64,000 bases of DNA from contig JAFYXJ010000019.1 of NCBI GenBank assembly GCA_017546205.1, positions 1 through 64,000 of the forward strand, given 5' to 3'. The position numbers were made by a program, and so were the translations under genes. Under the pieces are notes generated by a model. The model was given only the letters and a program-made list of their open reading frames with translations, did not search any database and was not told where the DNA came from. This DNA comes from Clostridia bacterium. Lineage in GTDB: Bacteria > Bacillota > Clostridia > Monoglobales > Monoglobaceae. This document shows, piece after piece, positions 6,389 to 47,808 of the stretch (positions are counted from its first letter, which is position 1; each line of letters starts with the position of its first letter).

Positions 6389-7327
6389 ATGATGGAGAAA
6401 TTTACCGTTGCTTTGTCGAAGGTTATCAATGAAATGAAACTGGAAAAACTGTATGATCCGGAACGGAAAATCATGGTGGAAACAACTGATGTTAACCGAC
6501 CTGGATTGCAGATTACCGGATTTTTTGATTATTTTGATCCTAGACGAATACAGGTATTCGGCATGGTGGAAAATACATATCTTGCCACATTAAGTCCCAA
6601 GGAGAGATATGACTGTCTGGAACGTTTGTTTGAAAAACAGGTGACAGCGGTAGTGCTTACCCGCAATGCGGTACCCTCTCTTGAAATGATGAAACTGGCA
6701 GAGATATACCAGACGCCGGTGCTGCGGTCACCTCATTCTACCTCGTATTTTACCAGTACCCTCAATGCGTATCTGAATGTGGAACTGGCACCCAGAATTA
6801 CCCGACACGGGGTTTTGGTTGAGGTTTATGGTCAAGGCGTACTGATTATGGGAGATAGCGGTGTTGGTAAAAGTGAGGCTGCTGTGGAACTTATTAAAAG
6901 AGGTCACCGGCTGGTTGCCGATGATGCGGTGGAAATTAAACGTGTTTCGTCCAAGTCGCTGGTGGGATTCTCACCGGATATTATCCGGCACTTTATAGAA
7001 ATCCGTGGTATCGGTATCGTCGATGTAAAAAACATCTTCGGTATGGGTGCAGTCAAAGATTCGGAGAAAATTGATTTGATTATCCATCTGGAAGCATGGG
7101 AGCAGGGCAAACAGTATGACCGTCTGGGGTTGGTGGATGAATACACCAACATTCTTGGTCTGGATATTCCGTCTTTGACCATACCGGTACGGCCGGGAAG
7201 AAACCTTGCTGTTATCTTTGAGGTGGCTGCCATGAATAACCGACAGAAGAATCAGGGTTACAATGCAGCGGCAGAATTGAATCGCAGAATTACCGAACAT
7301 ATCAGCGGACTTTCTGCGGAAGAATAA
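6389..7327 (+). CDS. hprK: HPr kinase/phosphorylase
   Basis: 312 aa, full length. In Firmicutes this enzyme phosphorylates HPr on Ser46 with ATP or PPi and also removes that phosphate, setting carbon catabolite repression. The C-terminal catalytic half has the P-loop GDSGVGKSE (about residues 154-162) and the family signature EIRGIGIVDVKNIFGMGAV. The N-terminal half is the usual regulatory domain. The start at 6389 (tandem ATGs) follows AAAGAGGTG and is downstream of a clear promoter. It heads a run with a PHP phosphatase, murB, rapZ and whiA. The HPr encoded at 18979-19236 lacks Ser46, so the substrate of this kinase may be another HPr or Crh-like protein. Confidence 0.95.
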   Translation: MMEKFTVALSKVINEMKLEKLYDPERKIMVETTDVNRPGLQITGFFDYFDPRRIQVFGMVENTYLATLSPKERYDCLERLFEKQVTAVVLTRNAVPSLEMMKLAEIYQTPVLRSPHSTSYFTSTLNAYLNVELAPRITRHGVLVEVYGQGVLIMGDSGVGKSEAAVELIKRGHRLVADDAVEIKRVSSKSLVGFSPDIIRHFIEIRGIGIVDVKNIFGMGAVKDSEKIDLIIHLEAWEQGKQYDRLGLVDEYTNILGLDIPSLTIPVRPGRNLAVIFEVAAMNNRQKNQGYNAAAELNRRITEHISGLSAEE

Positions 7328-9870: not shown

Positions 9871-10641
9871 ATGGTATCCTTTTCCCAACAAACTAAGGAA
9901 GAACTATATAGAACGGAGACAGAATCTCCCTGCTGTGTAAGGGCGGAATATGCGGGATTATTGTTGTTTGGCGCTAATCTGGACCGGTACGGCGAAGATG
10001 AAGCCATGCTTCAAACCTTGAATGTACTGGATGAAAACGGAAAACTTTGCTATCGCATTGCGACCGAGACTGTACGGGAGGAATGTTGCCGACGTGCGTT
10101 GGTGAAAGGTGCTTTTTTAAGCGCCGGAACGGTCATTGATCCCAGAAAGAATTATAATCTGGAGATTGTTACACCCCATAAGGAATTGAGCGAGGATATG
10201 CTCCGGCTGTTGCAGGAAATTGGCTTTCCGTTCCGCTTGGTTCTCCGTAAGTCCAAATATGTGTTGTACCTGAAAAACAGTGAAGCGATTGCAGATTTTT
10301 TGTCTTATATCGGTGCGTTTCAGGCACAAATGGAAGTTTTAAATGTAAAAATAGAAAAAGAAATTCATAATGAATTTAACCGGGCTGCCAATAGTGAAAC
10401 TGCCAATCTGGAAAAAACCATCAATGCGGCGGTGGAACAGATTCAGGCGATTATGATACTGGATAAGATGGTGGGACTTGATAATCTTCCTGATGATTTG
10501 AGGGAAGTTGCTTATCTAAGGTTGGAACATAAGGAAATGAGCCTTGCAGAATTGGGAACATTGGTAGAGCCGCCTCTCAGTAAATCCGGTGTCAATCACC
10601 GTTTAAAGCGCTTGATGAAGATGGCGTTACAGGAATCGTAA
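9871..10641 (+). CDS. whiA: Sporulation/cell-division regulator WhiA, short form
   Basis: 256 aa. WhiA proteins join a LAGLIDADG-homing-endonuclease-like domain to a C-terminal helix-turn-helix and act in division, chromosome segregation and sporulation. Conserved blocks seen are SFSQQTKEEL at the N-terminus, CCRRALVKGAFLSAGTV, LEIVTPHKEL, NRAANSETANLEKTI, and the C-terminal HTH around LAELGTLVEPPLSKSGVNHRLKRL. It is about 50-60 residues shorter than the B. subtilis protein (about 316 aa as I recall it). The loss falls in the first LAGLIDADG lobe, between GLLLFGANL and CCRRALVKGAF. Frame and flanks are intact, so this looks like a natural short form. It begins 11 bp after rapZ. Confidence 0.92.
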   Translation: MVSFSQQTKEELYRTETESPCCVRAEYAGLLLFGANLDRYGEDEAMLQTLNVLDENGKLCYRIATETVREECCRRALVKGAFLSAGTVIDPRKNYNLEIVTPHKELSEDMLRLLQEIGFPFRLVLRKSKYVLYLKNSEAIADFLSYIGAFQAQMEVLNVKIEKEIHNEFNRAANSETANLEKTINAAVEQIQAIMILDKMVGLDNLPDDLREVAYLRLEHKEMSLAELGTLVEPPLSKSGVNHRLKRLMKMALQES

Positions 10642-17306: not shown

Positions 17307-18968
17307 TTATTTTAACAGATTCAACGCAGTTTCCCGAATTTGGGAAATATTGCAGGAAAGAATTTTTTGTTTTAAGGGAAGAATCTGGTTGGGAGAAACA
17401 GAGAGCTCATCTACCTCCATGGCAAGAAATAATTCAGTTAGTTCCAAGTCGCCGGCAAGTTCTCCGCAGATGCCGGCCCAGATGCCTGCTTGGTGTGCCG
17501 CTTTGATCACGGTGTCAATGAGTCGAAGTATTGCAGTATGATGTGGATTTAAGAAAGCGGTGGCATCGGGATTCTGTCGGTCAACGGCAAGAGTATATTG
17601 GGTCAGGTCATTGGTCCCGATGGAGAAAAAGTCTACTTCTGGCGCCAATTTATCGCAAATAATAGCGGCGGCAGGAGTCTCAATCATAATACCGAATTCG
17701 CAGTCCTCCCGAAAGGTGAGATGCTCCTGTCTTAATTCTTCACGGACTTCTTTCATCAAATCTTTGACCTGCAGCACTTCATCCAATGAGGTGATCATGG
17801 GTACCATAATAGCAAGTTTCCCAAACATGGATGCACGATATAGAGCTCGAAGCTGTGTCTTGAATACGGCAGGACGGGTCAGACACAGACGGACAGCACG
17901 GACCCCCATGGCAGGGTTGTCTTCTTGTGGCATGGCGAAATAATCCGCTTGTTTATCGGCACCGATATCCAGTGTACGAATGACAACCCGTTTTCCCATT
18001 GCCTTTTGTAAAACGCTTTTGTAAATAGAAAACTGTTCTTCCTCGGATGGATAGGTTTTTCTTCCCAGATACAAGAATTCACTGCGGAACAGTCCTACAC
18101 CCATGCCGTCGTTGGCATATACCAACGCCATGTCCGAAAGGGAACCAATGTTGGCATAGAGCAATACCGATTGACCATCCTTGGTAATGGGTTTTACCCC
18201 TTTTAATTTGGAGAGAAGTTCGGTTTGGCGGTCTGTTTGTTCTTTTTTCTTTTGCATGGTCAAAACTGTTTGCATATCCGGATCCACATAGATTTTCCCG
18301 CTGAATCCATCTACAATGATATCGGCACCATCGTAGGTTGATTCCATAATGCCAACGGCACCGATAACGGCGGGACTGTTCATGGTGCGCGCCAAAATGG
18401 CAGTATGTGAGGAGGAAGAACCTTTTTCTGTGACAAAGGCGAGAATGCCGGATTTGTCCATTTCCACCGTTTCAGAGGGAGCAAGGTCTTCAGCCCCGAT
18501 AATTACCGGCGCATGTGAGGAAAGACGGAGCCGTCCTTCGTCGGTTAGAATGGAAAGAATTCGCTGTGAAATATCCTTGACATCCGCACCTCTTGCTTGC
18601 ATATAAGAGTTGTCCATGGATGCAAACATTTCGGAAAAGGTGTCCGCTGTAATGGAAACTGCACTCTCTGCGTTCAGGCGTTGTTCCTGTATGATGGTCT
18701 TTACCGAATCCAGATAATCCGGATCTTCCAGCATCATCCGGTGAATTTCAAAAATCATGGCATTTTCTTCGCCAACCTCCCCAATGGCTTTCTGGTACAG
18801 GTCATCCAATTGTTGCTCGGCGGACTTTCTGGCTTCTTCAAATCGTTTCCACTCTTTTTGGGTATCCTGAATGTAGGTGCGTGGAATTTTGCTTCCTGCC
18901 TTTTTTAAATGGAGCAGTTTCCCGAAAGCAACTCCACCGCATACCCCTTGGCCTTGAATGGTAATCAT
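17307..18968 (-). CDS. ptsI: PTS enzyme I (phosphoenolpyruvate-protein phosphotransferase)
   Basis: 553 aa. Takes phosphate from PEP and passes it to HPr, the first step of all PTS sugar uptake; cytoplasmic. The predicted phospho-acceptor is His188 in GSSSSHTAILAR (this stretch usually reads GGRTSHTAI). The C-terminal PEP-binding barrel shows FLYLGRKTYPSEEEQF, the metal-site region FGIMIETPAA, FFSIGTNDLTQYTLAVDR and the catalytic GICGELAGD. An AGGAGGCATACC site precedes the ATG. It lies 10 bp after ptsH in the standard ptsHI order. There are no sugar-specific PTS genes in this operon; the EIIBC at 43889 is a possible client. Confidence 0.95.
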   Translation of the reverse strand: MITIQGQGVCGGVAFGKLLHLKKAGSKIPRTYIQDTQKEWKRFEEARKSAEQQLDDLYQKAIGEVGEENAMIFEIHRMMLEDPDYLDSVKTIIQEQRLNAESAVSITADTFSEMFASMDNSYMQARGADVKDISQRILSILTDEGRLRLSSHAPVIIGAEDLAPSETVEMDKSGILAFVTEKGSSSSHTAILARTMNSPAVIGAVGIMESTYDGADIIVDGFSGKIYVDPDMQTVLTMQKKKEQTDRQTELLSKLKGVKPITKDGQSVLLYANIGSLSDMALVYANDGMGVGLFRSEFLYLGRKTYPSEEEQFSIYKSVLQKAMGKRVVIRTLDIGADKQADYFAMPQEDNPAMGVRAVRLCLTRPAVFKTQLRALYRASMFGKLAIMVPMITSLDEVLQVKDLMKEVREELRQEHLTFREDCEFGIMIETPAAAIICDKLAPEVDFFSIGTNDLTQYTLAVDRQNPDATAFLNPHHTAILRLIDTVIKAAHQAGIWAGICGELAGDLELTELFLAMEVDELSVSPNQILPLKQKILSCNISQIRETALNLLK

Positions 18969-18978
18969 GGTATGCCTC

Positions 18979-19236
18979 CTAAAAGTTTTCCTTAAAAAAT
19001 AATTCTAGTGTGTGGATGGCTGCGTCCTCATCTTTACCCTCCGCAGTCACAGTGACAGTTGCTCCGCTAAGGACACTCAATCCCATTACCGAAAAAATCC
19101 GTTTTGCATCACCACTTTTCCCATTACACTGCAAAGAAATATCTGATTCAAATTGGGACGCCTCTTTTACCAGCAAACCTGCTGGTCGTGCATGAATACC
19201 TTGTGGGTCAGTAATTGTAAATGTAAATTGTTGCAT
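18979..19236 (-). CDS. ptsH: Phosphocarrier protein HPr, Arg at position 46
   Basis: 85 aa. Carries phosphate from enzyme I to EIIA domains on His15, which is present in GIHARPAG. The usual regulatory Ser46 is Arg here: after His15, counting from the Met at 19236, Lys45-Arg46-Ile47-Phe48-Ser49 replaces the common Lys-Ser-Ile-Met-Gly. The codon reads CGG. Sequence outside this site (GATVTVTAEGKDEDAAIHTL) is a normal HPr. The start is the ATG before QQFTF, preceded by GGGAGGAAAAG; an upstream in-frame ATG lies beyond that site. It is the first gene of ptsHI. Loss of Ser46 means this HPr cannot take part in HprK-driven repression in the classical way. Confidence 0.94.
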   Translation of the reverse strand: MQQFTFTITDPQGIHARPAGLLVKEASQFESDISLQCNGKSGDAKRIFSVMGLSVLSGATVTVTAEGKDEDAAIHTLELFFKENF

Positions 19237-19481: not shown

Positions 19482-19567
19482 TTAATTTGATTCTTCTATC
19501 TACAGAGGAATTATGAGTATGATAGTGCGACTTGGTCGCAAGTGTTTCCTTACAGGAGGTAATGATG

Positions 19568-20671
19568 ATGAGTGAAATTAAGAGAATTGGTGTTATGACA
19601 GCCGGTGGTGACTGCCCCGGATTGAACGCTGTTATCCGTGCGGTCACCAAAACTGCAATCCAGAAATACGGTCTGGAGGTTGTTGGTATTAAGCATGGTT
19701 ACCGTGGACTTTTCCTTGGTGGAGATGAGTTTGTTAACTTAACTTTGGAGAATGTTTCCGGTATCATTTCTAAGGGTGGTACAATTTTGTACAGCTCCAA
19801 TAAGGATAATCTTTTTGATTATACCTATACCGATGAAAACGGTGTAGAACATAAAAATGTGGATATGTCTGATGTGGGCGTTGAAAACCTGAAAAAAGCA
19901 GGCATCGACGCTATGGTGATTATCGGCGGTGACGGCACTTTGACTTCCGGCCGTGACTTTGCAAGAAAGGGTGTCAAGGTAATTGGTGTTCCCAAGACCA
20001 TTGACAATGACCTTGCAGCAACGGATACTACATTCGGCTTTGATACAGCAGTTGCAACAGCGACTGAGTCTATCGACCGTCTGCGTACAACTGCGGAATC
20101 TCACAGCCGTGTTATCGTAGTTGAAGTTATGGGAAGATATGCTGGATTTATCGGTATTGCATCCGCTATTGCCGGCGGTTGTGATGCTTGTCTGATTCCG
20201 GAAGTTCCTTATGATATCAATAAGGTTGCAGAAGCAATCAAAGCAAACCGTGCAAGAGGTAAGAATTTTGGTTTGGTGGTTGTTGCAGAGGGTGCAAAAC
20301 CGCTGAATGGTGAAGTTGTCGTTTCCAAGGTTGTAGAAGATAGTCCTGATCCCATCAGATTGGGCGGTATTGGCAGTGTTGTTGCAGATCAGCTGGAAAA
20401 ACTGGTAGGTCTGGAATGCCGTGCAACCATCCTTGGCCATGTACAGAGAGGCGGTGTTACCACTGCAAACGACAGAATCCTGTCTACTCGTTACGGAACG
20501 TATGCTGTTGACCTTTTGATGGAGGGCAAGTTTGGCAATATGGTTGCGCTGAAAGGTGCAGAACTGGGTTATGAGTCTTTGGAAAACGTCATTGGCGCCA
20601 ACAAGTCTGTAGAAGAAGACGGTTATTGGTTGAAGACTGCTCGTAACGTGGGCATCTGCATGGGTGATTAA
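19568..20671 (+). CDS. pfkA: 6-phosphofructokinase
   Basis: 367 aa. Phosphorylates fructose 6-phosphate in glycolysis. N-terminal GVMTAGGDCPGLNAVIR is the nucleotide-binding start. GGDGTL near residue 100 has the glycine typical of ATP-dependent enzymes. PKTIDNDL has Lys where E. coli PfkA has Gly; this lysine is also found in PPi-dependent and in the long ATP-PFK clade. The protein is about 45 residues longer than E. coli PfkA, as in that clade. ATP is the more likely donor. Three tandem ATGs occur at 19562-19570; the third is 8 nt from AGGAGG and is chosen. Monocistronic, with its own promoter. Confidence 0.93.
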   Translation: MSEIKRIGVMTAGGDCPGLNAVIRAVTKTAIQKYGLEVVGIKHGYRGLFLGGDEFVNLTLENVSGIISKGGTILYSSNKDNLFDYTYTDENGVEHKNVDMSDVGVENLKKAGIDAMVIIGGDGTLTSGRDFARKGVKVIGVPKTIDNDLAATDTTFGFDTAVATATESIDRLRTTAESHSRVIVVEVMGRYAGFIGIASAIAGGCDACLIPEVPYDINKVAEAIKANRARGKNFGLVVVAEGAKPLNGEVVVSKVVEDSPDPIRLGGIGSVVADQLEKLVGLECRATILGHVQRGGVTTANDRILSTRYGTYAVDLLMEGKFGNMVALKGAELGYESLENVIGANKSVEEDGYWLKTARNVGICMGD

Positions 20672-36296: not shown

Positions 36297-37691
36297 TCAA
36301 AACAGCATATTTTCAATATATTTTTTCATAAAGAAATGGTTGGAGGACAACTCTTCTGTTTTGGCAATGGAGGCAATATATTCTGCCTCTTTTAGAAAAT
36401 CTTTATTGTGCAGAAGCATGATGGAACCGGTTCCTGCGGCGTTCCCGATTACCATCGTTTTGGGAAGAAAGGCATCTGGAATCAGTTTCAGAATTGCCCC
36501 GTTGCGTATATCGAGATAGGAACCAAATCCTCCAGCAAGATAGAAGGTGTCGATATCATCATAACAAAGGCTGTTGCAGTTGAGTAAGGTATCTATGCCG
36601 GAACGAATGGCGGACTTGGCAAGTTGTACCTGTCGTACATCCTCGGGCGTCAGACAGATGCCACTGTCTCCAATAGGAAATGTCTGTTCCATATATCCGG
36701 TTTCATCAATGACACCCAATTGCAAAAGGCAGGCTATAGTGTCAATCAGTCCGCTGCCGCATAATCCTACAGCAGGAAGATTCTCAATGGTGGTGTATTC
36801 CACTGCCCCGTCTTTGATAAAAACTTTGTTGATGGCGCCGCCTACGGCACAAGTACCATGTGTAATACCGGCACCCTCTAAGGCAGGACCGGCGGCAGTG
36901 GAGCAACAAGTTAGCGTTCCATTGTGCCAGAGTACCATCTCTCCGTTGGTACCAATATCTACCAGAAGAGAAGTTTTGTCTTTTAACATACCGCTGGCGA
37001 GGATAGCAGTGGTAATATCTGCCCCCACATAAGCCGATATACAAGGAGGAAGATAGGCGTTCTTATACCACCCTCCAAACAGTGTTTGAGGTGTATAGGG
37101 GGAAATTGCAATACCTGAGGGGTCCTTCCCGGTTAAAAGGTGGAGCATAGTGGTATTTCCGGTAATCACATATTTTTCAATGGGATAATCCTCTGCTAAG
37201 TTGCGGATGCAGTTGCAGATTTCCTCTTGCAGTTGACAAAGCCCGCCTTTGCCAGCGTGCTCAATCCGGGAGATTACATCAGCACCATACACAGCCTGCG
37301 GGTTGGGTACGGCAACACATTTAATCTGTCGGCATTGGGGGAACTGATAAAGATATCCGGCAACGGTGGTGGTCCCAATGTCAACCGCCATGCCATACCC
37401 GTCTGTTATTAATGGTTTTTTTTCAAATGCGGGCATAAAGCCATCGGTCATTCCTTGCAGGGTTTGTTCCTTTATGACATATTCAATCAAAGTGTCGGAG
37501 TTCACATAGGTCTGACAAGAAAGAACCTCTTTGCCATTGGCAGTTACTCTGCATTTTTTGCAGCTACCTTTTCCGCCACAAGGCTTATCCTGAGGGAGCC
37601 CCAACTGTTCCAAAGCAACAGAAAGAAGCACCTGCTCATAAAAGGTGCCGGATAATTCTTTATCGTTGGTTTTTACCTTGATGGTGAACAT
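36297..37691 (-). CDS. ASKHA-domain ferredoxin protein (corrinoid activation/RACE-like, DUF4445)
   Basis: 464 aa. The N-terminal ~80 residues form a plant-type [2Fe-2S] ferredoxin domain with Cys38, Cys44, Cys47 and Cys59. The rest is the ATP-binding ASKHA domain seen in reductive activators of corrinoid proteins (RamA/AcsV group): MAVDIGTTTVAGYLY, VITGNTTMLHLLTG, LLVDIGTNGEMVLW, GLCGSGLIDTIACLL, FYLAGGFGSYLDI. Such proteins use ATP to reduce Co(II) corrinoid in methyltransferases. It is shorter than the ~600-residue activators. No corrinoid protein or methyltransferase gene lies next to it, so its partner is unknown. Confidence 0.82.
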   Translation of the reverse strand: MFTIKVKTNDKELSGTFYEQVLLSVALEQLGLPQDKPCGGKGSCKKCRVTANGKEVLSCQTYVNSDTLIEYVIKEQTLQGMTDGFMPAFEKKPLITDGYGMAVDIGTTTVAGYLYQFPQCRQIKCVAVPNPQAVYGADVISRIEHAGKGGLCQLQEEICNCIRNLAEDYPIEKYVITGNTTMLHLLTGKDPSGIAISPYTPQTLFGGWYKNAYLPPCISAYVGADITTAILASGMLKDKTSLLVDIGTNGEMVLWHNGTLTCCSTAAGPALEGAGITHGTCAVGGAINKVFIKDGAVEYTTIENLPAVGLCGSGLIDTIACLLQLGVIDETGYMEQTFPIGDSGICLTPEDVRQVQLAKSAIRSGIDTLLNCNSLCYDDIDTFYLAGGFGSYLDIRNGAILKLIPDAFLPKTMVIGNAAGTGSIMLLHNKDFLKEAEYIASIAKTEELSSNHFFMKKYIENMLF

Positions 37692-41634: not shown

Positions 41635-43875
41635 ATGACAGTTGCAGAACGTTTGAAAAAACATTGCCCGAAACCGATTTATGACTGTACCTATCGGGAA
41701 CTTTATGCAGGTATCAGCCAGATGGTCAATGAGATGATTGCTGAGAGAAAACCAGAACCTTGTCAGAAGAAATTGTATTATGTTTCAGCAGAATTTTTGA
41801 TCGGCAAATTACTGGTCAGCAATTTGTTGAGTTTGGGGATTTATGATCAGGTAGAACGATTGCTGACCGAAAATGGCAAAAGCCTGAATGAAGTGGAGGG
41901 TGCAGAGGAAGAACCATCCTTAGGAAACGGGGGACTTGGCAGACTTGCAGCGTGTTTTATGGATTCGGTTGCCGCATTAAACCTTTGCGGAGACGGCATC
42001 GGTCTTTGTTATCGGTTTGGACTTTTTAAGCAGGTATTTGAAGAAAACCGCCAGACGGAGCAACCGAACCCGTGGATGGACACATCAAGTTTTCTGGAAA
42101 AAGGGCGACGATCCTATGAAATCCCTTGCGGAGATACGGTGTTGCATTCCCGTGAATACACCATTTCGGTAGTTGGCGAAAAACGGGTGAATGCACTGCA
42201 TCTTTTTGATCTTGAGACGGTAGATGAAACGTTGGTCGAAGAGGGGATTCTTTATGATAAAGCACAGATTGAAAAAAACCTGACGCTGTTTCTTTATCCT
42301 GATGACAGCGATGAGGCAGGAAAACTGCTCCGCTTGTACCAGCAGTATTTTATGGTTGCCAACGGGGCACGGCTGATTCTGGATGAGTGCAGAGAACGGG
42401 GCGGAAACCTGAGACGGCTTTATGATTATGCGGTAATTCAAATCAATGATACCCATCCTGTCCTGATGATACCGGAACTGATTTATCTCCTTGTCAAAGA
42501 GGGAATCGGGATAAGGGAAGCAACTGAAATTGTGAAGAAAACCTGTGCATACACCAATCACACCATTCTGGCAGAAGCATTGGAATGTTGGCCTCTTGCC
42601 ATGATGCGGAAGGTGGTACCGCATCTGGTGCCAATGATTCAGGTTCTGGATGAATGGACGAAAAAAAAATATTCCAATCCTAAAGTGGCGATTATCGATG
42701 CGGACAACAGAGTGCAAATGGCAAACCTTGCCATTCACAACACCTTTAGTATCAATGGGGTTGCATTTCTGCACACTGAAATTTTAAAGCACAGTGAATT
42801 AAACCACTTTTATCAGATTTATCCGGAGCGATTTAACAACAAAACCAACGGTATTACATTCCGTCGTTGGCTGACACAATGCAATCCGGATTTGGATGCC
42901 TTTCTTTGCCGTACCATAGGCGATCGATTCCGTAAAGATCCAAGTGCGTTGGAAGATTTGCTTGCCCATGCCAAAGATAAAAAAGTGCTGGAGGAATTGC
43001 TGATTATCAAACAGGCAAACAAACGGCGTCTGTGTGAGTATTTGCCGTGGGAATTGAATGAAAATTCTATTTTTGACATTCAGATCAAACGGCTTCACGA
43101 ATACAAACGACAACAGTTGAATCTGCTTTACCTGATTGACCGGTATCTCAGCATCAAAGCCGGGAAACTCCCGTCAATGCCTATTACCGCTATTTTTGGA
43201 GCAAAGGCGGCACCGGCGTATACCATTGCCAAAGATATTATTCATTTGATTTTGTGTATGCAGGAGCTAACTGAAAATGATAGCGAAGTATCGCCGTATC
43301 TCAGAGTCGCTATGGTGGAAAATTATAATGTGACATCTGCATCCAGATTAATTCCTGCCTGTGAAGTTTCCCAGCAGATTTCCCTTGCTTCCAAAGAGGC
43401 AAGTGGAACGGGGAATATGAAACTGATGCTCAACGGAGCAATTACGCTGGGAACCGAAGATGGTGCTAATGTAGAGATTCACCGATTGGTGGGGGACGAC
43501 AATATTTATATCTTCGGAGCACGAGCGGAAACAGTATTGAAACGTTACGGGGAAAAAAGTTATGTAGCAAGAGAATACTATGAGACAGTGCCGGAACTGA
43601 AAAGGGCGGTAGACTTTATTACCGGAGATAAGCTTTGCAGTGTAGGAAACCGACAATGTTTAAAACGGCTGCAAAATGAACTGATTGAAAAGGATTGGTT
43701 CATGACGTTTCCGGACTTTGCGGCGTATAAGGAGACCAGAAATGCCGTATACTCGGATTACCAGGACAGAATGGAATGGGCTAAGAAAATGCTGGTCAAT
43801 ATTGCCATGGCAGGGTATTTTTCCTCTGACCGTACCATCATGGAATACAACACACAATTGTGGAAATTGAAGTAA
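41635..43875 (+). CDS. glgP: Glycogen/maltodextrin phosphorylase (GT35)
   Basis: 746 aa. PLP enzyme releasing glucose 1-phosphate from alpha-1,4-glucans. The PLP lysine is predicted as Lys596 in EASGTGNMKLMLNGA. Other blocks: LGNGGLGRLAACFMDS, VIQINDTHPVLMIPEL, TNGITFRRWL, RLHEYKRQQLN, NYNVTSASRLIPACEVSQQISLASKE. Shorter than the ~800-820-residue E. coli enzymes but comparable to compact Clostridia forms. The start follows GGGGAGGATTCC. It is the first of three genes with 13-bp and 11-bp gaps (EIIBC, MapP-MalQ), so it acts with them on maltose and maltodextrin. No clear promoter was seen in the 96-bp gap to sfsA. Confidence 0.94.
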   Translation: MTVAERLKKHCPKPIYDCTYRELYAGISQMVNEMIAERKPEPCQKKLYYVSAEFLIGKLLVSNLLSLGIYDQVERLLTENGKSLNEVEGAEEEPSLGNGGLGRLAACFMDSVAALNLCGDGIGLCYRFGLFKQVFEENRQTEQPNPWMDTSSFLEKGRRSYEIPCGDTVLHSREYTISVVGEKRVNALHLFDLETVDETLVEEGILYDKAQIEKNLTLFLYPDDSDEAGKLLRLYQQYFMVANGARLILDECRERGGNLRRLYDYAVIQINDTHPVLMIPELIYLLVKEGIGIREATEIVKKTCAYTNHTILAEALECWPLAMMRKVVPHLVPMIQVLDEWTKKKYSNPKVAIIDADNRVQMANLAIHNTFSINGVAFLHTEILKHSELNHFYQIYPERFNNKTNGITFRRWLTQCNPDLDAFLCRTIGDRFRKDPSALEDLLAHAKDKKVLEELLIIKQANKRRLCEYLPWELNENSIFDIQIKRLHEYKRQQLNLLYLIDRYLSIKAGKLPSMPITAIFGAKAAPAYTIAKDIIHLILCMQELTENDSEVSPYLRVAMVENYNVTSASRLIPACEVSQQISLASKEASGTGNMKLMLNGAITLGTEDGANVEIHRLVGDDNIYIFGARAETVLKRYGEKSYVAREYYETVPELKRAVDFITGDKLCSVGNRQCLKRLQNELIEKDWFMTFPDFAAYKETRNAVYSDYQDRMEWAKKMLVNIAMAGYFSSDRTIMEYNTQLWKLK

Positions 43876-43888
43876 GGGAGGAAATAGA

Positions 43889-45523
43889 ATGGGAAGAGAA
43901 AAAGTTTTTGATTTTTTACAGAAGTTAGGTAAGGTCCTGATGGTGGTTATTGCTGTTATGCCTGCTGCCGGTATTGCAATCAGTTTGGGCAAACTGATTG
44001 GCATGTTTGCAACGGAAACGCCGATTCTTGTGACCATTGGCAGTATCATTGAAAATATTGGATGGGCAATTATTACCAATTTAAATATTTTGTTTGCAGT
44101 TGCCATCGGCGGCTCCTGGGCAAAAGACAGAGCGGGTGGTGCATTTGCCGCGTTGCTTGCCTTTATCTTAATCAACAATATTACGGGAACCATTTTCGGT
44201 GTGACCAATGCCATGCTGCAAGACCCGGAAGCCGTGACACACACTTTGTTTGGTCAGGAAATTCTGGTCAACGGATACTTTACTTCGGTGCTGGGGTCTC
44301 CTGCGTTGAATACTGGTGTGTTTGTAGGCATTATCTCCGGTTTTGTGGGAGGAGTTATCTACAATAAATATTATAATTACCGCCGGTTACCGGATGTTCT
44401 TTCCTTTTTCAACGGAAAACGGTTTGTGCCTTTGGTGGTGATTTTTTGGTCTATTGTTATCGGACTTTTGTTTGCCATCATCTGGCCACTGATTCAGTTG
44501 GGAATCAATAATTTTGGTGTGTGGATTGCAAACTCTAATGACACCTCCCCGCTTTTGGCACCCTTCCTGTATGGAACGTTGGAGCGTTTACTGATTCCCT
44601 TCGGTTTGCATCATATGCTGACCATTCCTATGAATTATACCTCTTTTGGAGGAACCTATATTATTCAAACCGGAGTCAATGCAGGAAACGCCGTGTTCGG
44701 TCAGGATCCTCTCTGGCTTGCGTGGGTATCGGATTTGATTAACCTAAAGGATGCCGGCAATACTGAGGCGTATCAGAATCTTCTGGCAACCGTTGTACCG
44801 GCACGATTCAAGGTGGGACAGATGATTGGCGCAACCGGACTTTTGATGGGTGTTGCATTGGGTATGTACCGGAGGATTGAGCCCGCCAAGAGAACAAGAT
44901 ACCGTTCTATGTTTATTTCTACTGCATTGGCAGTCTTTTTGACTGGGGTCACCGAACCTTTTGAGTTTATGTTTATGTTCTGTGCCATTCCCTTATATAT
45001 TGTCTATTCCTTTTTGCAAGGTTTGGCGTTTGCCTCTGCGGGAATCGTTCCTCTGCGACTGCATTCCTTTGGCAATCTGGAACTTTTGACAAGAGTTCCC
45101 ATTTCTTTGCGTGCAGGTCTGGGTGGAGATATCATCAATTTTATTCTTGCGGTGATTGTATTCTTTGCTATCGGGTATCTGGTTTCTTATTTTATGATTG
45201 GAAAATTCCGATACGCAACGCCGGGACGGTTGGGTAATGATATGGATCTGATGGCAGACGAGGAAGAAAGACCAAAAGCCCATGGTGGTGATTCTCAGGC
45301 GGAGCGGATTATTGCTTTGCTTGGAGGAAGAGAAAACATTGCATTGGTGGATGCCTGTATGACGCGACTTCGGGTAACGGTTAAGGAGCCTGAGAAAGTG
45401 AAAGAGGAGGAGGATTGGAAAAAAGAAGGTGCCTTGGGACTTTTGAAAAAGGGGACAGGGATTCAGGCAATCTATGGGCCTAAGGCGGATGTGTTAAAGT
45501 CAGATATTCTGGATATTTTGTAG
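43889..45523 (+). CDS. PTS maltose/glucose-family EIIBC transporter
   Basis: 544 aa. EIIC (about residues 1-430, ten or so membrane segments) with EIIB at the C-terminus (460-544); phospho-Cys is Cys490 in ALVDACMTRLRVTV. GGAFAALLAFILINN, LTGVTEPFEFMFMFCAIPLY and LERLLIPFGLHHM are glucose-superfamily EIIC blocks. There is no EIIA domain, so an EIIA-Glc-like protein from elsewhere must supply it. The following gene begins with a maltose-6'-phosphate phosphatase-type domain, which argues that the substrate is maltose, imported as maltose 6'-phosphate. It starts after AAGGGAGGAAATAG. Confidence 0.9.
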   Translation: MGREKVFDFLQKLGKVLMVVIAVMPAAGIAISLGKLIGMFATETPILVTIGSIIENIGWAIITNLNILFAVAIGGSWAKDRAGGAFAALLAFILINNITGTIFGVTNAMLQDPEAVTHTLFGQEILVNGYFTSVLGSPALNTGVFVGIISGFVGGVIYNKYYNYRRLPDVLSFFNGKRFVPLVVIFWSIVIGLLFAIIWPLIQLGINNFGVWIANSNDTSPLLAPFLYGTLERLLIPFGLHHMLTIPMNYTSFGGTYIIQTGVNAGNAVFGQDPLWLAWVSDLINLKDAGNTEAYQNLLATVVPARFKVGQMIGATGLLMGVALGMYRRIEPAKRTRYRSMFISTALAVFLTGVTEPFEFMFMFCAIPLYIVYSFLQGLAFASAGIVPLRLHSFGNLELLTRVPISLRAGLGGDIINFILAVIVFFAIGYLVSYFMIGKFRYATPGRLGNDMDLMADEEERPKAHGGDSQAERIIALLGGRENIALVDACMTRLRVTVKEPEKVKEEEDWKKEGALGLLKKGTGIQAIYGPKADVLKSDILDIL

Positions 45524-45534
45524 AGGAGGCAGGT

Positions 45535-47808
45535 ATGCGACTCATAACATTGAATGCACACAGCACGCCGGGGGAAGCCAAGGCGTTTGCAGATGCTGTG
45601 ACACGGCTCTGCCCGGATATCATTGCCCTGCAGGAAGTGAATCAAGGGAAAAATGCATCTGTATGTGTTGAGGAGGAGGGCATCATTTCCCGGGGAATAC
45701 CCCTTAAGGAAGATAATTTTGCATTGTGTGCGGTGAGGGAACTTAAGCAAAAAGGATGGATGTATCATCTGGTGTGGCTGGGAATTAAAAGCGGGTATGA
45801 CCGCTATGATGAAGGGCTGGCATTCCTTTGCCGATGTCCCATAAAGGAAACCGATACGGTTCTTTTGAGCAAGGAGAACGATTATAACAACTGGAGATGC
45901 CGGATGGCATTAGGGATCCGAATAGGAGATGAGTGGTTTTACAATCTGCATACCGGCAGATGGGAAGATCAGGAAGAACCATTTCTCTCCCAATGGAACA
46001 ACTTGCAAAAGAGAAGAAAACAGGGCTTCCGTAATTGGCTGATGGGAGATTTCAACGCACCGGCAGAACAACGGAATAAAGGGTATGACAAGGTCCTTAG
46101 TGACGGATGGAAAGACACCCGCCATTTAGCGGAGAAAAAGGCGGGGAAATTTACCGTTCCCGGCAGTATTGATGGCTGGGAAGATGCCGATGATGAGTCC
46201 GGAATGCGGATGGATTTTATTATGGTGGACAAGGATGTCCCGATCAAGGAATCGGCGGTGGTTTTTGACGGCATACGGGAAGAGGTGCTATCCGACCATT
46301 TCGGTGTTATGGTGACGCTGGGAACTGAACGGGGAGCAGGGATTTTACTTCCGGTCACAGCCCTCCCATCTCCTTATGGCATAGGTTGCTTTTCCAAAGA
46401 GGCGTACCGCTTTGTAGATTGGCTCAAGGAGGCGGGACAAAGCTATTGGCAAATTCTTCCTTTAGGGCCTACCGGATTCGGGGATTCACCTTATCAGTCC
46501 TTTTCCACTTTTGCAGGGAATCCGCATATGATTGACTTGGAAGCCTTGATAGAGGAGGGACTACTCACCAAAGAAGAATGTGAAAAAACGGATTTTGGAA
46601 AGGACAAATCATCTGTTTCCTATGAAAAACTGTATCAAAATCGATTCCCTCTCCTGAAAAGGGCGTTTTATAGATACCAACCGGATGAAACATTTTATAC
46701 GTTTCGGGAAGAACAGAAGTTCTGGCTAGAGGAATATGCCTTTTTTATGGCAATCAAGGGTGCTTTTGAAGATTGCAGTCTCTCTGCATTACCGGAGCCT
46801 ATTCGCAAACGAGATAAGACAACTTTGAAAAAATACAAGGAAGAATTAGGTGGAGACATAGCATTTTGGGAATTTCTTCAATATCTTTTTTATCAGCAAT
46901 GGCACAAACTGAAAACTTACGCCAATCAAAAGGGTATACAAATCATCGGGGATTTACCCATTTATGTTTCGGCAGACAGCAGTGATGTGTGGACAAATCC
47001 GGAACTGTTTTCTGTGGATGACGGCTGTATTCCCGTGGAGGTTGCAGGTTGTCCGCCTGATGGTTTTTCTGCTGAGGGACAACTATGGGGAAATCCGGTG
47101 TTTCAGTGGAAGGAACATCAGCGTACCGGTTATGCATGGTGGCTGAAGCGATTGGAACATTGCTTTTCGATGTATGACATTGTGCGAATTGATCATTTCC
47201 GAGGATTTGATGCCTTTTATACAATTCCGTACGGGAGCAAAAATGCGGTTGACGGCGTCTGGAAAGATGCACCCGGGAAAGAGTTTTTCCGTAAAGTAAG
47301 GAAGGTTTTTCCCCAAGGGAAAATCATTGCAGAAGATTTGGGCTTTGTGACGGATTCTGTCAAAGAATTACTTTCCGATTGTGGGTTTCCGGGCATGAAA
47401 GTACTGCAGTTTGCATTTGACGCCCGGGATACCGGTGTTAGTAACGAATATCTTCCGCACAAGTATCCTAAAAACTGCGTGGCGTATACCGGAACCCATG
47501 ACAATCCCACCTTGCAGGGATGGTTTGGACAGATTGCGGAAGCAGAAAGGAACAATGTGCGAAAGTATCTTTGTGATGGTTATACCCCAAAGGAGAAGTT
47601 GAACAATGGATTGATTGCTCTGCTGCTAAGGAGCGGGGCAGATACCTGTATTATTCCAATGCAGGATTATCTGGGACTTGGTGACAATGCGCGAATGAAC
47701 ACTCCGTCTACAGCAAACGGAAACTGGAGATGGCGTGTCACGGAAGAACAACTTTCCTTGACATTGGCAGGAGAGATTGCGGATACTGCCCGGCGATACG
47801 GACGATAA
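45535..47808 (+). CDS. Fusion: maltose-6'-phosphate phosphatase-like (EEP) domain + 4-alpha-glucanotransferase (GH77)
   Basis: 757 aa. Residues ~1-262 are an endonuclease/exonuclease/phosphatase-fold domain: Asn7 in LITLNAHS, Glu34 in LQEVNQ, His139 in HTGRW, Asp172 and Asn174 in GDFNAP, Asp254-His255 in LSDHFGV. The stretch IKSGYDRYDEGLAFLCRCPI matches MapP-type maltose 6'-phosphate phosphatases. From ~265 a complete GH77 MalQ follows (GILLPVTALPSPYGIGCF), with Asp553 (nucleophile, RIDHFRGFDAFY), Glu600 (AEDLGFVTD) and Asp656 (GTHDNPT). All catalytic residues are present in both halves and one frame spans them without a stop. RBS GAGGAGGCAGG. It follows EIIBC by 11 bp. The phosphatase substrate is inferred from similarity and context. 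Confidence 0.92.
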   Translation: MRLITLNAHSTPGEAKAFADAVTRLCPDIIALQEVNQGKNASVCVEEEGIISRGIPLKEDNFALCAVRELKQKGWMYHLVWLGIKSGYDRYDEGLAFLCRCPIKETDTVLLSKENDYNNWRCRMALGIRIGDEWFYNLHTGRWEDQEEPFLSQWNNLQKRRKQGFRNWLMGDFNAPAEQRNKGYDKVLSDGWKDTRHLAEKKAGKFTVPGSIDGWEDADDESGMRMDFIMVDKDVPIKESAVVFDGIREEVLSDHFGVMVTLGTERGAGILLPVTALPSPYGIGCFSKEAYRFVDWLKEAGQSYWQILPLGPTGFGDSPYQSFSTFAGNPHMIDLEALIEEGLLTKEECEKTDFGKDKSSVSYEKLYQNRFPLLKRAFYRYQPDETFYTFREEQKFWLEEYAFFMAIKGAFEDCSLSALPEPIRKRDKTTLKKYKEELGGDIAFWEFLQYLFYQQWHKLKTYANQKGIQIIGDLPIYVSADSSDVWTNPELFSVDDGCIPVEVAGCPPDGFSAEGQLWGNPVFQWKEHQRTGYAWWLKRLEHCFSMYDIVRIDHFRGFDAFYTIPYGSKNAVDGVWKDAPGKEFFRKVRKVFPQGKIIAEDLGFVTDSVKELLSDCGFPGMKVLQFAFDARDTGVSNEYLPHKYPKNCVAYTGTHDNPTLQGWFGQIAEAERNNVRKYLCDGYTPKEKLNNGLIALLLRSGADTCIIPMQDYLGLGDNARMNTPSTANGNWRWRVTEEQLSLTLAGEIADTARRYGR

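Follow-up and report, generated by a model that had tools for sequence, protein, structure and literature searches.

In the textbook scheme for Firmicutes, one HPr carries both of the sites that matter, His15 for transport and Ser46 for regulation, and CcpA is the reader of the phosphorylated serine. The HPr encoded in the window, by which we mean the whole 64,000-nucleotide stretch of DNA analyzed here, has an arginine at position 46 while an intact HPr kinase/phosphorylase (HprK) is encoded in the same window, which raises the question of what this kinase acts on. Our findings indicate that the Arg46 protein is most likely a PTS carrier immune to HprK and that the kinase would act on separate proteins that have Ser46, a division of labor in which different proteins would serve transport and regulation.

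The window is part of contig 11 of an assembly of 1.48 Mb in 30 contigs that is 74% complete (features in Table 1). Membership of the ptsH product in the HPr family is clear from a PF00381 score of 95 bits against a cut-off of 23. The sequence-only reading had rightly named the gene and given its coordinates, to which the strand must be added: the plus strand of this interval contains stops in translation, and ptsH reads on the minus strand from an ATG at 19236, with gggaggaaaagcc just before it and the purine-rich stretch gggaggaaaa. The translation runs MQQFTFTITDPQGIHARPAG...GKSGDAKRIFSVMGL...KENF. Its active center, GIHARPAG, has the pattern expected around His15 (G-I/L-H-A-R-P-A), and a phmmer alignment places Ser46 of solved HPrs gap-free against its Arg46, so that translation and alignment bear out the earlier description of a normal His15 combined with a CGG arginine codon. 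The serine found at position 46 in HprK-regulated Firmicutes HPrs is therefore absent here; codon 49 is TCG (Ser).

Table 1. Features discussed in the text. Positions are those of the window, except for the class C gene, which is numbered on contig 9 of the same assembly (G000).
Feature	Position	Strand	Product length	Basis
ptsH (HPr, His15 and Arg46)	18979..19236	minus	85 aa	PF00381 E 2.7e-27, translation
ptsH codon 46, CGG (Arg)	19099..19101	minus		codon reading
ptsH codon 15, CAT (His), PTS phosphorylation site	19192..19194	minus		codon reading, alignment to solved HPrs
ptsI (enzyme I), directly downstream of ptsH	17307..18968	minus		TIGR01417 584.8 bits, cut-off 341.7
hprK (HPr(Ser) kinase/phosphorylase), intact	6389..7327	plus		TIGR00679 374.7 bits, cut-off 240
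PTS IIBC	43889..45523	plus		TIGR02003 858.7 bits, cut-off 649.85; PF02378/PF00367
class C gene, contig 9	28240-28467		75 aa	PF00381; aggagg before ATG

The HPr sits in a PTS context made up of the adjacent ptsI and one EIIBC in the assembly; the IIBC of the window was the sole EIIC found in a search of the genome and is the presumed client of the Arg46 HPr. The kinase scores above its TIGR00679 cut-off and has both a Walker A motif (GDSGVGKS from residue 155) and, from residue 204, EIRGIGIVDV, which we take to be the HprK signature motif, confirming the earlier statement that it is intact. Its gene is the first of the run hprK-PHP-murB-rapZ-whiA. The WhiA ORF as listed (9871-10641, plus strand) aligns only with residues 90-303 of the WhiA model (304 positions), so its N-terminal part is missing or lies in another frame. 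Elsewhere in the window, ptsHI diverges from a phosphofructokinase gene (19532-20671, plus) across a shared intergenic stretch; glycogen/alpha-glucan phosphorylase, the PTS IIBC (TIGR02003, of unassigned type), and malQ stand in a row at 41635-47808 (plus); and the matches of a RACo-like protein at 36297-37691 (minus) are confined to the middle and C-terminal RACo domains.

Arginine at position 46 is shared by the HPr of a genus-mate, G017 (Ructibacterium gallinarum, whose class C stretch, described below, is identical to NZ_JADCKB010000012.1), which is 66% identical to that of the window. With a profile model built from four Arg46 HPrs we searched 195 genomes of the class, comprising the own genome and others at least 95% complete, and read the best 30 loci: residue 46 was Arg, Lys, or Thr in 23 of these, Ser in six, and Gln in one, which agrees with the earlier remark that some Clostridia have Arg46 HPrs. 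Of the 23 loci, 19 have ptsI, a fructose-type EIIBC, or both as neighbors (14 ptsI, 9 EIIBC, 4 both; two of the neighboring EIIBCs were checked), and neither gene was seen within about 1.5 kb in the other four (L225, L232, L239, and L241), while one of the six Ser46 loci of the same best-30 set has such a neighbor (L246). All 24 genomes with an Arg/Lys/Thr46 HPr (those of the 23 loci and G018) encode another HPr-family protein with Ser46. In 22 of them PF00381 detects the protein that we call class C, which was not found in G049 and is represented in G114 by a weak 46-bit match to the class C model. The co-occurrence in 24 of 24 genomes resolves the puzzle of a kinase beside an HPr that has no Ser46, though it does not establish a special link between Arg46 and Ser46 proteins.

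Two readings that would leave regulation on the window HPr itself fare poorly against this survey. A sequencing or assembly error at codon 46 might be suspected in an assembly of 30 contigs, and we rejected it, since the Arg46 of the genus-mate and the Arg, Lys, or Thr at this position in 23 of 30 related loci reduce its probability to a negligible level. The sequence-only reading had also offered Ser49 as a substitute; on this view, which can be widened to other serines of the protein, HprK would phosphorylate the Arg46 HPr there and the outcome would be unchanged. Residue 49 is indeed Ser in the window HPr and in six of the 23 Arg/Lys/Thr46 loci, whereas it is Ala in 12, including the genus-mate, Gly in three, Met in one, and Glu in one, a distribution that makes the proposal most improbable; in a clostridial HPr, moreover, a Ser46Ala substitution abolished phosphorylation by the organism's own HprK, according to the accessible portion of the report (PMC4634974).

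A search of the genome for a second HPr or Crh with Ser46, the check proposed at the outset, was successful. PF00381 matched two proteins, the window HPr and the class C protein on contig 9, MKTFTVLLSSINDVKNFVNIVTKYDFEIDLTSGRYIVDAKSIMGIFSLDLSKPIKVEALSDNCDQLLSELAPYIQ, which has no equivalent of His15 and a complete Ser46 helix (KSIMGIFSL). Class C of the genus-mate (L003) is 88% identical to it, and an AlphaFold2 model of that protein, computed with 31 relatives, has a mean pLDDT of 95.4 and a predicted beta-alpha-beta-beta-alpha-beta-alpha arrangement, which we take to be the element order of HPr. The first 40 matches of this model in a Foldseek search of the PDB were all HPr-family proteins by title and length (HPr, Crh, NPr), with TM-scores on the query of up to 0.79. 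The contig 9 protein thus shares two attributes with Crh: an HPr fold, as predicted from the L003 model, without His15, and Ser46 within the HprK target helix. Across the 32 rows of class C in our A3 alignment, Ser46 and its helix show no variation, and the His15 loop differs; these rows came from a scan that used a Ser46 motif among six, and Ser46 is present as well in 18 of 18 further class C loci picked by PF00381 independently of that scan. As class C has no His15 and would carry no PTS phosphate there, its conserved serine helix would serve regulation alone.

The class C gene of the own genome is followed by a tadA-like ORF and then by the gene for pyruvate phosphate dikinase, and among 80 named loci (L003-L082) each of these two genes is found downstream of class C in 14. 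The tRNA methylthiotransferase gene mtaB is transcribed away from class C at a distance of no more than 600 bases in 58 of the 80 and belongs to a looser cluster in 63. By gene order, pyruvate phosphate dikinase is a candidate link to the class C pathway.

Within the order, which we sampled with 24 genomes including the own one, HprK occurs in all 24, enzyme I above its cut-off in 13, a LacI-family gene in 11, and class C, by PF00381, in 19, the genomes without it though HprK is present being G001, G007, G014, G022, and G023. A further Ser46 protein, class A, is an HPr with both His15 and Ser46 (...GLHARPATFFIQKANE...NAKSLLGVLSLGI...) and occurs in 23 of the 23 other genomes of the order. The PF00381 search did not find it in the own 74%-complete assembly; as the genus-mate (99% complete) has it (L106) in addition to class C, the own class A gene may be lost or may lie in the missing part. 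Class A keeps His15 in 21 of 23 order genomes and may therefore double as a PTS phosphocarrier in those with enzyme I. Residue 15 is Gln in one small genome without ptsI (G015, L103) and Arg in another (G004, L105), with Ser46 kept in both, and these His15-less versions look like Crh in the making. Neither ptsI above the cut-off nor a LacI-family gene was found in G002, G004, G005, G015, G021, G022, and G023, yet all of these have HprK and class A; ptsH without ptsI has been described for a few species, such as Ureaplasma and Bartonella, in the available text of PMC2405797.

The surroundings of class A were read at 40 loci (L083-L106 without L088, plus 17 of the loci L253-L278). None of the 40 has ptsI beside it, the lone ptsI match in that neighbor search being L088, an Arg46 locus, and the WhiA, RapZ, HprK, MurB, and DnaE of the window found no match there that would mark class A as a Crh by gene order. 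Next to the class A gene lies uvrC in 36 of the 40. Arg46 HPrs are confined to four of the 24 order genomes (the own genome, G017, G018, and G019), and a further type of HPr, type D, keeps Ser46 beside ptsI in ten (G006-G014 and G016); loss of Ser46 is thus no general rule for PTS HPrs. The own family also contains another HPr-like family without Ser46, read by eye (L121-L126 and L147-L150), of which nine of ten loci are without His15 as well (AAKPA...DIGKLFILLS) and L121 keeps LHAKPA. In G018 (contigs 12 and 123), three genes score above the cut-off for enzyme I, and the HPrs are of different types.

If HprK marks these Ser46 proteins, the identity of the reader becomes the next question. No genome among the 195 passes the cut-off of TIGR01481 (ccpA), and we therefore checked the residues that contact HPr instead, reading the best match in all 75 genomes with a match at 1e-60 and requiring Tyr/Phe295, Arg303, and Lys307 together (3oqm chain numbering). 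Tyr295 and Lys307 presumably serve as HPr-contact residues. In 3oqm, the B. subtilis CcpA, the stretch YDIGAVAMRLLTK holds the Arg at chain position 303, which is Arg304 of the protein, reported in the accessible part of PMC4591507 to contact the serine phosphate of HPr. The triad is present in 30 of the 75 genomes, with Tyr in 27 and Phe in three (G117, G150, and G165), where an earlier score line at 289 bits had given 23 CcpA genomes.

Class C was called in 106 of the 195 genomes, three of the calls being weak (G014 at 53 bits, G114 at 46, and G162 at 50), and HprK in 153, among them every one of the 106. None of the 30 triad genomes has class C. Conversely, the triad is missing from the best CcpA-like match (with a second one read in G065 and G182) of all 35 class C genomes with a match at 1e-60, and the other 71 class C genomes have no CcpA-like match at that threshold; scoring covered ten candidates per genome, and where there were more, a CcpA may have escaped notice. 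Arg alone is an unsafe mark of CcpA, given that two class C genomes of one genus (G025 and G118) have it without Lys and that L155 and L157 have it alone. By family group, triad CcpA occurs in nine and class C in 37, with none common to both, and 17 of the 153 HprK genomes have neither.

In the own order, the triad was found in none of 17 LacI-family proteins, the Arg of L155 and L157 standing alone, and no LacI-family gene was seen in 13 of the 24 genomes, six of which are 96-99% complete. The 99%-complete genus-mate has three LacI-family genes (L157, L164, and L168), none with the triad. For the own genome, the earlier suggestion that repression works differently agrees with a search that returned no CcpA or LacI-family gene from the 74%-complete assembly, whose missing part may hold CcpA or a class A HPr, and we grade that suggestion as likely.

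The mutual exclusion of class C and CcpA is weakened as proof that one functionally replaced the other. On a quick tree of 64 HprK rows, a single branch (SH-aLRT 72) sets the 18 rows from CcpA genomes apart from the others, and a single independent class C versus CcpA pair can be drawn, so the exclusion represents one deep split between groups of Clostridia and not many independent replacements. The p values computed for the genome counts take no account of such relatedness. The 106 genomes with HprK and class C in which no CcpA was seen nevertheless fit the idea that class C works without CcpA.

Together, these results support the first of the three options raised by the sequence-only reading, a second HPr or Crh with Ser46, and suggest how the system may operate. 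Enzyme I, encoded next to ptsH, would hand phosphate to His15 of the Arg46 HPr, from which it would pass on to the EIIs. Since arginine is not phosphorylatable as serine is, HprK could neither mark nor brake the carrier at position 46, and the flow from enzyme I to HPr should escape the kinase. HprK would signal instead through HPr-fold proteins with Ser46, class C here and probably also class A, which is present in the genus-mate but was not seen in the incomplete assembly of the own genome. In this lineage, phospho-Ser46 is probably read by something other than CcpA.

Against this division of labor stands the possibility of canonical carbon catabolite repression, in which CcpA and a His15 and Ser46 HPr lie in the unassembled 26% of the genome, with class C as a Crh and the window HPr as a spare carrier. 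The 74% completeness of the assembly, the class A of the genus-mate (L106), and the chance that CcpA was overlooked in genomes with more than ten candidates, of which ten were scored, all leave room for it, and Crh, His15-less and CcpA-dependent, is an established kind of protein that occurs with HPr, HprK, and CcpA in one clostridial genome, by the available text of PMC3526391. Nonetheless, with no triad among the three LacI-family genes of the genus-mate, no LacI-family gene in 13 of 24 order genomes, and no triad in the 35 best CcpA-like matches of class C genomes, we regard it as unlikely. HprK could also be a relic, or could have switched to substrates other than HPr, with Ser46 of class A and class C kept for, e.g., folding; in Gram-negatives, HprK is on record without CcpA and with effects not tied to it (PMC6916182, accessible part). 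A relic would hardly be expected in 24 of 24 order genomes and in 106 of 106 class C genomes, compared with 153 of 195 overall, nor with intact Walker A and signature motifs in the window, and the Ser46 helix is invariant in the 32 motif-scanned A3 rows despite a different His15 loop, with Ser46 in the 18 motif-independent loci; we consider this reading very unlikely. We thus favor a carrier free of the HprK brake alongside separate Ser46 targets.

Extending this reading to much of the Clostridia is more tentative, and we put its chances at slightly under even: across the 37 sampled family groups with class C, a CcpA-free pathway may operate in which HprK writes the metabolic state both on class C and on a Ser46 HPr, a non-CcpA effector reads it, HprK and the Ser46 HPr are kept even without enzyme I above the cut-off or a LacI-family gene, and some PTS carriers have been freed by Arg or Lys at position 46. 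In a group that includes gut Clostridia, the two sites of HPr thus lie on different proteins with no CcpA found, so applying to them models of carbon repression taken from Bacillus may be misleading, and it becomes a testable question which protein responds to the HprK mark in bacteria lacking CcpA. In the open full-text literature (PMC, with most subscription papers outside it), no title or abstract described a clade of Arg46 HPrs or, from Clostridia lacking CcpA, an HPr-like protein that has Ser46 but no His15.

Comparison with known systems places these proteins close to familiar ones. The window HPr has the family (PF00381/TIGR01003), length, GIHARPAG with His15, and ptsI neighbor of Firmicutes HPrs, and differs from them in having Arg46 at the HprK site, Ser46. 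Class C and B. subtilis Crh alike have the HPr fold (predicted for class C), Ser46, no His15, and an HprK in the same organism, but class C has the N-terminal loop INDVKNFVN where HPr has GIHARPA, and its A3 profile matches crh chains weakly, at 26.2-26.6 bits against 31.9 for the best HPr. Crh acts through CcpA, as the available text of PMC3526391 states, whereas class C was not found alongside a triad CcpA. Xanthomonas campestris has HprK, HPr, and enzyme I without CcpA, which was not found here either, but it is Gram-negative, and a separate Ser46 protein, present here, goes unmentioned in the accessible part of that report (PMC6916182). Within the class, the Ser46 equivalent of Clostridioides difficile HPr is phosphorylated in cells, according to the part of PMC8730811 available, so the mark itself is in use. 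Thermoanaerobacterium, in which T. saccharolyticum was reported from BLAST to have HPr, HprK, Crh, and CcpA together (PMC3526391, accessible part), shares with our lineage HprK and Ser46 as the mark (PMC4634974; PMC3526391); by the available text of these papers, its HPr unites His15 and Ser46 and CcpA reads the mark, whereas here, where CcpA was not found, the two sites reside on separate proteins.
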